This document shows positions 33,990 to 36,328 of a DNA stretch of 64,000 nucleotides, piece after piece. Below the pieces are notes generated by a model, which was not told the origin of the DNA, ran no database searches, and saw nothing but the letters and a program-made list of their open reading frames with translations. Numbering within the stretch: the first letter of the stretch is position 1; the number at the start of each line of letters is the position of its first letter. The DNA is from Bradyrhizobium sp. KBS0727 (GTDB lineage Bacteria > Pseudomonadota > Alphaproteobacteria > Rhizobiales > Xanthobacteraceae), in the NCBI RefSeq assembly GCF_005937885.2, contig NZ_CP042176.1, positions 5,141,501 to 5,205,500 of the forward strand. The letters run 5' to 3'. The translations under genes were made by a program, and so were the position numbers.

Positions 33990-34541
33990 TCAGCGCTTCT
34001 GCGTCGCGAACCCGTAGATCAGCGCCAGACGGTCGAGGCATTCGTAGAAGCGCCTCGCGAAATAGTCGCGCCAGCGCTGGGTGCGCAATCCCCGCCGCTG
34101 CCCGATCTGTTCCATGGACATGCCGTGAACCAGCACATCATGAACCAGCGCCGAGCCGTCGGCGCCGAGTTCGCGCTCGGCGCGGTTCAGCCGCAGCACC
34201 GCCTTGCGCTGTCCTTCGGTGATCGGTTCGCGCATCTGGCCGCCATCGACATATTCCCGGGTCGGATCGACCGCGCGCGGGCCCCGCTCGGCCTTTTCCC
34301 AATCGCTCTGGAAGGCGCGTCCGGCCTGATACTGTGCCTCGTCGATCTGGCGGTGCGAATGCAACCGCCCCAGCGGATCGTTGCGGATCGAGCGCAGCGC
34401 CACGATCTTCTCGCCGGGATCAAGCGCAAGTGGATTGTCGACCTCGACGGTCGCGACTTCGGCGTTGCGCAACAGATCCCGCGCCCGTCGGTCATGCGCC
34501 TTGGCGGGGTTGTGGGGCTTTTTGCGTTTCGCTTTGGGCAT
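33990..34541 (-). CDS. DUF6456-like protein of GcrA-linked module
   Basis: The product has 183 residues. The N-terminus is strongly basic (PKAKRKKPHNPAKAHDRRAR). The middle has MREPITEGQRKAVLRLNRAERELG and the end HGMSMEQIGQRRGLRTQRWRDYF, a helix-turn-helix-like segment followed by CLDRLALIYGF. This agrees with the DUF6456 family often found near GcrA-like and phage regulatory genes. It is probably a DNA-associated protein. It lies 54 bases downstream of the GcrA-like gene on the same strand. The family assignment is from memory of the layout and is not certain. Confidence 0.65.
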   Translation of the reverse strand: MPKAKRKKPHNPAKAHDRRARDLLRNAEVATVEVDNPLALDPGEKIVALRSIRNDPLGRLHSHRQIDEAQYQAGRAFQSDWEKAERGPRAVDPTREYVDGGQMREPITEGQRKAVLRLNRAERELGADGSALVHDVLVHGMSMEQIGQRRGLRTQRWRDYFARRFYECLDRLALIYGFATQKR

Positions 34542-35129: not shown

Positions 35130-35169
35130 TACTCCCACCTCTTCCCTGTCACGCCCGGCCCGCCCTCAA

Positions 35170-35186
35170 TTTCTGATATTCCGAAA
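35170..35186. promoter_or_regulatory. Operator O1 for the S24-type repressor
   Basis: TTTCTGATATTCCGAAA, a 17-bp imperfect palindrome of the form TTTCNGA-N3-TCNGAAA. It is the copy nearest the GcrA-like gene, in the divergent promoter region. Confidence 0.6.
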
Positions 35187-35202
35187 TCAAAGTCAAGCTT
35201 GA

Positions 35203-35219
35203 TTTCTGATAATCGGAAT
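35203..35219. promoter_or_regulatory. Operator O2 for the S24-type repressor
   Basis: TTTCTGATAATCGGAAT, the middle copy, 33 bases from O1 and 25 bases from O3 (start to start), in the same orientation. Three aligned copies between divergent genes are the pattern of phage-type repressor operators. Confidence 0.6.
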
Positions 35220-35227
35220 TGCTATCA

Positions 35228-35244
35228 TTTCTGAAATTCGGAAA
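35228..35244. promoter_or_regulatory. Operator O3 for the S24-type repressor
   Basis: TTTCTGAAATTCGGAAA ends 9 bases before the repressor ATG at 35254 and overlaps the ribosome-site region (GGAAAGGATGAG), so binding here could shut off the repressor's own gene. Confidence 0.6.
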
Positions 35245-35253
35245 GGATGAGCC

Positions 35254-35892
35254 ATGCTGGACATCAGGCTGATCGAACGCGGACTGGAGAAGCCGGGCAA
35301 GACCAAGGGCGGTCTCGCCGCGGCCATGGGCGTTCGTCCGGGCGCGGTCTCCGAGATCCTGTCGGGGATTCGCCTGATCAAGGCGTCGGAAATCGCGCCG
35401 ATCATGGAGTATCTCGAACTGAACTCGGTGCCGATCATGGGCCGCGTCGGCGCCGGCGCCTCGATCGAGCCCGAGCACGAGCAGGTGCCGCCGGAAGGCC
35501 TTGGCGAGGTCGAACTGCCCTTCCCGATAGCCGAAGAGACCATCGCGTTCGAGGTCGCCGGCGATTCCATGCTGCCCAAATACGAAAATGGCGATATTAT
35601 CGTGGTCTTTCGCGAACAGCATCATCCGCTGTCGAGTTTCTACGGCGAGGAAGCCGCCGTGCGCCTGAAGACCGGCGAACGCTATCTGAAGACGATCGAG
35701 CGGGGAAAATCCGCCGCACTGGTCAATCTCACAAGTTTCAATGCCAAGCCGATCAGCGGAGTAAAGCTCGAATGGATCGGCGAGATCTGCGTCACTCTGC
35801 CGAGAGGCCAGATCGAACGGCTGCGCAACAAGGCGCTGACGCGGACGCGCAAGGCGGCCAAGGCGCCGGGCGGACGGACGCCGGAAAAGTAA
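35254..35892 (+). CDS. S24-type self-cleaving repressor (LexA/CI-like)
   Basis: The product has 212 residues. The N-terminal helix-turn-helix (about 10-50: TKGGLAAAMGVRPGAVSEIL) is followed by a cleavage-region sequence GRVGAGAS, where the Ala67-Gly68 bond matches the LexA/CI scissile site. The peptidase dyad is visible: Ser105 in AGDSMLPKY and probably Lys146 in RYLKTI. The C-terminal tail (RTRKAAKAPGG) is basic. This is a DNA-damage-cleavable repressor layout. It faces operators O1-O3 upstream and O4 downstream. The operator differs from the alphaproteobacterial LexA box (GTTC-N7-GTTC), so it is not the housekeeping LexA. Confidence 0.85.
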   Translation: MLDIRLIERGLEKPGKTKGGLAAAMGVRPGAVSEILSGIRLIKASEIAPIMEYLELNSVPIMGRVGAGASIEPEHEQVPPEGLGEVELPFPIAEETIAFEVAGDSMLPKYENGDIIVVFREQHHPLSSFYGEEAAVRLKTGERYLKTIERGKSAALVNLTSFNAKPISGVKLEWIGEICVTLPRGQIERLRNKALTRTRKAAKAPGGRTPEK

Positions 35893-35953
35893 CCGGCCCG
35901 ACAGTAGGGTGATTCTGCCCGACGGACCCGGACAGAGCCGCCAGGGCGACGTC

Positions 35954-35970
35954 TTTCCGATTTGCCGAAT
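35954..35970. promoter_or_regulatory. Possible degenerate operator O5
   Basis: TTTCCGATTTGCCGAAT matches the operator consensus at most positions and lies 32 bases before O4, about the same spacing as O1 to O2. It is a weak match on its own. Confidence 0.3.
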
Positions 35971-35985
35971 TTTGCGCTGGACTTT

Positions 35986-36002
35986 TTTCTGATTTTCAGA
36001 AA
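35986..36002. promoter_or_regulatory. Operator O4, perfect palindrome
   Basis: TTTCTGATTTTCAGAAA: 7-bp arms, no mismatch, 3-base centre. It is located downstream of the repressor gene and about 50 bases before the start of the small gene at 36053, a normal operator position. Confidence 0.65.
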
Positions 36003-36052
36003 TAATGCCGTCGTTCGATTCCCATTCCCCGGATGAGGGCCAGATCGCCAGC

Positions 36053-36328
36053 ATGCAATACTTCGTCGTGATGGTCGACTACGGCCGGCGCGGCCGCGAG
36101 GCCGTCGTCGACCCGGAAATCACCCGTCGCAAGGTCGTCTCGCGGATCGCGTCCGGCGAATACGCGAACATCAGCTTCATTCATGAAATCGCGGATTGCT
36201 CGGTCGAGGACATCACCGCCGATATACTGAGCGAAGCCGCCCTGCCCGACATCGACGCGGCGGGCCCCGATCTGCAGGCTAACCAATTCGATCATGTTCG
36301 CGATCGGCGCAAGCATGAGACGATTTGA
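36053..36328 (+). CDS. Small protein, putatively repressor-controlled
   Basis: The product has 91 residues from the ATG at 36053 (QYFVVMVDYGRRGREAVVDP), with GAGGG 13 bases upstream. An ATG at 36005 is in frame but would overlap operator O4 and have no ribosome site. The sequence is mixed alpha/beta with an acidic segment (EIADCSVEDITADILSEAAL) and a charged end. I recall similar unnamed proteins near regulators in rhizobia, but I do not recognise a function. Its position suggests it is derepressed together with the S24 regulon. Confidence 0.6.
   Translation: MQYFVVMVDYGRRGREAVVDPEITRRKVVSRIASGEYANISFIHEIADCSVEDITADILSEAALPDIDAAGPDLQANQFDHVRDRRKHETI

Follow-up and report, generated by a model that had tools for sequence, protein, structure and literature searches.

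A probable λ-CI-like phage immunity switch, domesticated in Bradyrhizobium, and its operator at dispersed structured-RNA repeats

Within the 64-kb stretch of Bradyrhizobium DNA analysed here (64,000 nucleotides, hereafter the window), a gene for an S24-type repressor is surrounded by palindromes that look like its operators. Is this a free-standing switch that the host built for its own use, or is it something taken from a phage? Our results suggested the latter: judged from sequence comparison and a structure model, the module is probably a domesticated, λ-CI-like phage immunity switch.

The initial annotation of this DNA had reported four operator-like sites (O1 to O4), the S24 gene and a degenerate fifth site 32 bp before O4, and all of them lie where it had put them (Table 1). 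The arrangement reads O1-33-O2-25-O3, plus the O5/O4 pair before the small gene; the 33-bp distance from O1 to O2 had also been given correctly, and the layout as a whole is largely kept in relatives. The sites said to share one orientation are present, but their orientation carries little meaning, since they are near-palindromes. The single mismatch of O2 is located in its outer arm. Nine matches to TTTCNGANNNTCNGAAA with two or fewer mismatches were found in the window, compared to a shuffle mean of 1.91, and none of 100 window shuffles reached nine. The perfect 17-mer is found at four places in the 7.3-Mb genome, three of them at this locus (O1, O3 and O4) and the fourth, at C1:666924, at the head of a repeat element. 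In the genome-wide motif search that had been proposed, the core TTCNGAWWWTCNGAA occurs five times in the window's own genome, four of them here, while its reversed control is absent; with one mismatch allowed, the counts are 26 and 6, respectively.

Table 1. Positions in the window of the operators, promoter-like sequences and genes of the switch.
Feature	Position	Strand	Location or basis
Operator O1, TTTCTGATATTCCGAAA	35170..35186		between the S24 gene and the GcrA-like gene
Operator O2, TTTCTGATAATCGGAAT	35203..35219		within the spacer of the S24 promoter-like site
Operator O3, TTTCTGAAATTCGGAAA	35228..35244		immediately 5' of the S24 start codon
Operator O4, TTTCTGATTTTCAGAAA	35986..36002		within the spacer of the small gene's promoter-like site
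O5, degenerate partner site	35954..35970		two mismatches; O4 lies 32 bp further on
Promoter-like TTGATT-18-TATCAT, S24 gene	35199..35228	+	consensus match
Promoter-like TGGACT-17-AATAAT, small gene	35978..36006	+	consensus match
TTGACT, likely -35 of a divergent promoter	35191..35196	-	sequence
HTH (XRE type) plus S24 peptidase repressor, 212 aa	35254..35892	+	Pfam, PHROG, fold
GcrA-family gene, divergent, 180 aa	34596..35138	-	Pfam GcrA, E 5.3e-29
DUF6456 protein, likely second gene of the divergent unit	33990..34541	-	profile match
Small protein MQYFVVMVDYG..., 91 aa	36053..36328	+	predicted target of O4/O5

O2 lies in the spacer of the promoter-like site of the S24 gene itself, a geometry that agrees with autoregulation, and O4 lies in the spacer of a second promoter-like site. 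Two promoter-like consensus matches were found in the region, compared to a shuffle mean of 0.2, and TTGAC precedes the small gene in 68 of the 74 relatives that have the MQYF start. On the leftward side, 76 of 80 relatives have the motif [AG]TCAAG in the 140 bp 5' of the S24 gene; it is the likely -35 of the divergent promoter, for which a good -10 was not seen. The LexA-box consensus of the alphaproteobacteria is GTTC-N7-GTTC. No perfect copy of it exists between 35100 and 36100, in keeping with the proposal that the module has an operator distinct from the LexA box, and copies with one mismatch, scored on sequence only, are at chance level in the window (48, with 47.6 expected). The visible targets include no SOS gene, a point against the reading proposed here.

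The S24 protein matched Pfam Peptidase_S24 (E 1.5e-11), with HTH_31 and HTH_3 slightly under the cut-off; at E 0.1 Pfam added one irrelevant weak match and no LexA DNA-binding domain. NCBIfam gave no match, and among the PHROGs the protein belongs with the repressor family phrog_4 (E 2.1e-14). The Ala-Gly bond, Ser105 and the lysine of the dyad, which had been picked out from the one sequence, stood up in comparison: A67-G68, S105 and K146 do not vary across 30 of 30 orthologs, and in a 31-row alignment that includes phage homologues G68, S105 and K146 are invariant and A67 is present in at least 90% of the rows. By its domain, Ala-Gly bond, Ser and Lys, the protein is thus assigned, on sequence and model, to the S24 self-cleaving repressor class. 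The AlphaFold model made from the alignment with phage homologues (pLDDT 83.9) was used instead of a shallow-alignment model (pLDDT 47.5), which was set aside. The best Foldseek match of the model used was the λ repressor on the RecA filament (λ CI-RecA, 8gmu), and further matches were other λ repressor structures (2ho0, 3bdn) and the mycobacterial LexA. Since a sequence search against solved structures gave nothing significant (best E 0.2), the likeness to λ rests on fold comparison and family profiles. In the available part of a report on peat-moss viruses, an S24 gene is placed on a virus contig (PMC12142844).

These features bear on the possibility that the protein is a LexA-like SOS repressor in its own right, with a small regulon to itself, its phage likeness being mere shared domain ancestry. 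LexA too has the S24 half, the Ala-Gly bond and the Ser-Lys dyad, so that the conserved dyad and bond found here, as well as the genus-wide conservation described below, would suit this idea. However, LexA has another DNA-binding domain and another operator than the repressor of the module, and repair genes are not among the targets here; LexA membership was rejected because Pfam showed no LexA-type winged HTH (at E 0.1) and no perfect LexA-type box lies nearby. Moreover, the top structure matches are to λ CI, phage contigs have the same operators at nearly equal spacings, and our family sample confines the S24 protein to one genus and two genomes of another. We consider an independent repressor of this kind improbable.

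On one side of the S24 gene the window has the GcrA-like and DUF6456 genes, and on the other the small protein gene and OpgC. The GcrA-like, S24 and small genes were found together in 30 of 30 fetched loci, with the GcrA-like gene divergent. The GcrA family is known as a sigma-factor cofactor, and membership in it suggests such a role for this protein, which scores 37.6 bits, far under the cut-off of 280 of the NCBI GcrA equivalog. The DUF6456 protein matches the phage family phrog_21451 (function unknown; E 9.9e-21). The small protein had no match in Pfam, NCBIfam (as a 107-aa form) or the PHROGs at E 0.1. O4 had been described as standing before this gene, and this is right as to position; the start taken for the gene, 36005, is most likely not. 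Since the predicted -10 ends at 36006 and the MQYF start is present in 74 of 80 named relatives, the gene most likely begins with the ATG at 36053. We also observed that genome G127 has a second match to the small protein, a partial one, and that two other genera (G233 and G287) have distant homologues.

A full-length S24 ortholog is present in 34 of 36 genomes of the genus, the window's own counted, and the two genomes without it are 89% and 94% complete. In a sample of 198 genomes of the family, 13 matched the protein at E<=1e-30, 11 from the same genus and 2 from one other genus; the named relatives of the locus are mostly Bradyrhizobium. In the best 80 of 180 named loci, the O1-O2-O3 triple, scored at spacings of 32-35 and 24-27 bp, totals six mismatches or fewer in 74 loci and 7-11 in the remaining six, compared to 11-17 in Markov shuffles (one per locus). 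The O5/O4 pair, 31-34 bp apart (mostly 31-32), has at most four mismatches in 68 of the 80 loci and 5-7 in the other 12, with shuffles at 5-9. The operators are weaker in the more distant clade. In the upstream regions of this clade (L018-L030), all three operators are unlike those of the near clade and vary little within the clade; those of L018, for example, are ATTCCGGTATTCCGAAT, ATTCTGATATTCATAAT and ATTCCGAATTTCGGATT.

Weaker operators in one clade, together with a phage-like ancestry, are what a neutral prophage scar with no present function might leave behind. However, the ortholog, its synteny and the operator layout are retained genus-wide, and the reading frame stays open over its first 195 codons in each of the 30 aligned orthologs (identity down to 77%); several orthologs stop earlier at the C-terminus, among the last aligned codons. 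A scar is therefore a very improbable explanation.

The initial annotation was right in part, but the module does not look like a free-standing analogue of LexA. The protein and its three-plus-two operators match the immunity regions of temperate phages. The divergent genes are matched on the phage side as well, some strongly and some weakly, and some relatives have the operator many times over elsewhere in the genome. Four IMG/VR contigs, probably from one phage (L244-L247), encode a repressor 79% identical to that of the window. Their sites lie at -83, -50 (this one with a single mismatch) and -25, and a tandem operator pair with a 32-bp spacing follows downstream, which completes the full layout. 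In the stretches examined, up to 12.6 kb, these contigs have no match to the GcrA-like or small gene. L244 covers part of a 49-kb contig; its divergent gene encodes a short CII-like protein, and among the genes farther out are those for an AAA ATPase, a protein of the PDDEXK type and an HNH-like protein (the CII and HNH labels are our own reading).

A second contig of this kind supplied the CII-like protein used as query against IMG/VR. This search gave 29 contigs, of which 19 were counted after five near-duplicates and the five most distant contigs (L346-L350) had been dropped. An operator with at most one mismatch is present in the CI/CII-like intergenic region of 17 of these 19 dereplicated contigs, compared to about 1% of the shuffles of each, and in 14 of 16 when L322, L329 and L334, known from operator or repressor searches, are taken out. 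Among the spacings, 33 occurs in 11 cases and 25 in 10, the rest being 32, 24 and 59, and 9 of the 19 have an operator pair 32-33 bp apart elsewhere as well. L346-L350 have no site at two or fewer mismatches within 200 bp. The CI proteins of these contigs have the HTH in common and diverge behind it. Across L244-L247, L272-L274 and L318-L345 we observed one operator type and the three-plus-two spacing, with repressors differing behind the HTH, and as a group these contigs resemble an immunity superfamily.

Another genus of the family has a prophage-like locus by our own frame reading (L239), with an S24 protein 55-56% identical, two one-mismatch sites and, on the divergent side, a DUF6456 homologue 52% identical. 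This homologue, the phrog_21451 match and weak resemblances to GcrA in the leftward operons of phages (E 1e-4 to 0.013) point to a possible phage origin of the GcrA-like/DUF6456 pair as well. The tree has an open fork (84/90) on whether the CI of phage L244 falls outside or inside the host group, so the phage-to-host direction is not proven; we infer that transfer went from phage to host. The nearest named phage repressors (Mwe-Yong1, Mwe-JY08 and Ruegeria 45A6) have the S24 domain in common and lack the operator, and plasmid records gave four weak relatives. The operator is likewise absent from three prophage-like loci of the same genus with related early genes, found with the CII-like gene as query (2 of 146 genomes at E<=1e-8) or with the AAA gene (1 of 146 genomes at E<=1e-40). 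That these queries gave no same-genus prophage with this operator is compatible with immunity, and points to it weakly. Two prophage-like loci with a CII-like gene (L316 and L317, in G081 and G167) show, by eye, a different operator-like repeat around GTAGCG...CGCTAC.

How would such a switch work? Read from the sequence, the S24 repressor would bind the 15-17 bp dyad TTTCNGA-N3-TCNGAAA and occupy the promoter spacers, shutting off its own gene through O2/O3. At O1 it would keep the GcrA-like and DUF6456 genes off, and at O4, with the weaker partner site, the gene for the small MQYF protein. DNA damage would then cause RecA-stimulated self-cleavage at A67-G68 by the S105/K146 dyad, and the genes would be derepressed. 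Phage contigs with a lysogeny region have these same operators, so an incoming phage of this immunity type would presumably be silenced by the protein as well.

The repressor could also be real and yet not be cleaved upon damage, its S24 half serving to dimerise and an antirepressor or another signal releasing the genes, as with DicA and Rem of the Qin prophage. Such control of prophage repressors exists, according to the available part of PMC10448788. The constancy of A67, G68, S105 and K146 in the orthologs, which extends to the phage homologues in the 31-row alignment (A67 nearly so), argues against it, and we regard release by an antirepressor or another signal in place of cleavage as unlikely.

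The operator is not confined to the home locus. The core, a pattern taken from O1-O4 alone, matched in 104 of 146 genomes of the genus, several of them with 20-54 sites, and its reversed control matched 0 or 1 times per genome. Among 34 ortholog genomes, with home-locus sites counted in, those with a near S24 protein (at least 82% identity) have a median of 8 sites, compared to 1 in the others (17 genomes each, p 1.6e-6, not corrected for phylogeny); in six of the near-clade genomes the count is just 2-5. A role as chromosome-organising sites (54 in the 9.1 Mb of G077) was set aside, since the sites head repeat elements. Among 62 dispersed sites, at loci chosen by the site, 56 lie 65-134 bp upstream of the body of a repeat element and six have no such body. 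Their positions fall mostly into three classes, 73-76, 88-92 and 116-128 bp before the body.

When copies were selected by the repeat body instead, the 160 bp in front of it contained the exact core in 17 of the 19 copies from G074, in 20 of 30 from G077 (the other 10 have one mismatch) and in only 1 of 26 from the window's own genome (G000). The copies used were 19 of 21, 30 of 40 and 26 of 36 listed, and at most 40 candidates were scored out of 60, 128 and 71, respectively. The family, of which L085, L301, L312 and L096 are examples, has at least 21 matches in G074, at least 40 in G077 and at least 36 in G000, and occurs also in G076. It spread recently in G077, since 27 of the 40 matches listed are 97-100% identical to the query copy. 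The body is nearly absent from two genomes with a more distant S24 protein (two short matches each). Because the homologous stretch of the window's own genome lacks the palindrome, the operator seems to have arisen at different positions, either as a first gain or anew after a loss. In a modest test for selection on the repeat operators, the ten fixed operator positions are invariant in 17 copies of G074 (probability 0.006 for ten random columns); note that these copies were kept for matching the pattern, 2 of 19 being dropped, and that 55 of 89 neighbouring columns are invariant as well.

The repeat body, of about 330 nt, has a predicted RNA fold of 74 pairs, 18 of them with compensatory changes (16 copies from five genomes). 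Doubly changed cells number 50, compared to 14 in shuffles (0 of 500), a figure that is not a probability because the copies are related and their alignment also supplied the structure. When the partners were slid by one to three columns, pairing fell from 98% to 33-49%. Rfam had no match at the gathering threshold for four repeat loci and the window, nor at E up to 5 for one repeat copy.

Two further kinds of sequence were observed near operator copies. At L299 and L309 (G074 C6:30610 and G076 C3:274666), the same operator heads a second repeat-like sequence, cacctggttgcttccca, and after the operator come a sequence of the TTGAC type and CAAATCAGT. To the left of the operator-bearing copies L062 and L078 lies the published consensus palindrome of Br-REP1, CCGGAATCTCGAGATTCCGG, so the repeats are nested or adjacent; L076 has a changed version. 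Br-REP1 and Br-REP2 are, in the available part of PMC5082802, likewise dispersed intergenic repeats of Bradyrhizobium; they are short palindromes, whereas the operator-bearing element has the structured RNA body.

Does the repressor act at these repeats? The palindromes might instead be bound by another protein, or be a structural part of the repeat, and have nothing to do with the S24 repressor. Repeat copies share ancestry, so their number is not independent evidence, and this idea would sit well with the single palindrome-bearing copy inspected in the window's own genome and with the one-mismatch copies of G077. On the other hand, a pattern derived from O1-O4 finds up to 54 sites per genome with a reversed control at 0 or 1; the sites form three position classes, and at two more loci another repeat-like sequence lies behind the operator. 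In addition, the G074 copies keep the exact core although their bodies average 87% identity, and among the 34 ortholog genomes high counts are confined to the near clade. We regard unrelated palindromes as quite possible. Should the repressor control the repeat RNAs, this could hardly apply in the window's own organism, because there only one inspected copy carries the site. In its widest form, the proposal is that a fixed phage repressor became, in some species, a genome-wide silencer of dozens of the ~330-nt RNA copies, all released together on DNA damage or when a phage titrates or inactivates the repressor; the RNA would have acquired the operator more than once, and the cell would have standing immunity to every temperate phage using it. 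This proposal is tentative and somewhat doubtful.

As occurs with λ CI, which has an HTH and an S24 half with an Ala-Gly bond and a Ser-Lys dyad, three operators at divergent promoters and further operators at a second early promoter (OL/OR), the protein studied here joins an HTH to an S24 half with the same bond and dyad, O1-O3 lie between divergent genes and O5/O4 at a second promoter. Unlike λ, the gene is chromosomal and has no recognisable phage structural genes beside it; a GcrA-like gene takes the place of Cro/CII, and a single small protein gene lies behind the second operator region. By its layout, the locus is a λ-type region as regards the divergent CI, the operators between and those at the second promoter, and adjoining Cro/CII-like and phage replication or structural genes were not found at the window locus.

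The closest published analogue is Francisella FddR, whose binding and ciprofloxacin response were demonstrated by experiment (PMC13148647, seen in part), while the Bradyrhizobium module is known from sequence. FddR has the operator GTG-N11-CAC in place of TTTCNGA-N3-TCNGAAA. Judged from its genes and sites, the module belongs to the same class, that of chromosomal, genus-wide, phage-derived S24 repressors with their own palindrome at their own promoter and at divergent genes, the direction of transfer being left open by the tree. Unlike what the available part of that report describes for FddR, the operator and spacings recur here in phage contigs, and RNA repeats carry the operator in some species. 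DicA/DicC of the cryptic E. coli prophage Qin (PMC10448788) is a second published case, in which a retained prophage repressor with a CI/Cro-like partner governs an operon of a small protein and a small RNA. DicA differs in that it is relieved by the Rem antirepressor and sits in Qin, and the available part of the report makes no claim of genus-wide fixation.

Among the titles and abstract openings listed in searches of the open PMC literature, we found no description of the module or of the operator-bearing repeat. Relative to the parts of the FddR and DicA reports available, the operator geometry shared with phages and the operator-bearing structured-RNA repeats are new. Since phage contigs still have these operators, a single protein would give experimental access to domestication, immunity and host regulation alike. 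If our reading is true, the module adds, beside FddR, a clear case of a phage repressor turned core bacterial regulator, in a genus of nitrogen-fixing soil bacteria. And if the link to the repeats is true, a phage-derived damage switch would be tied to a large dispersed family of structured RNAs outside Rfam.
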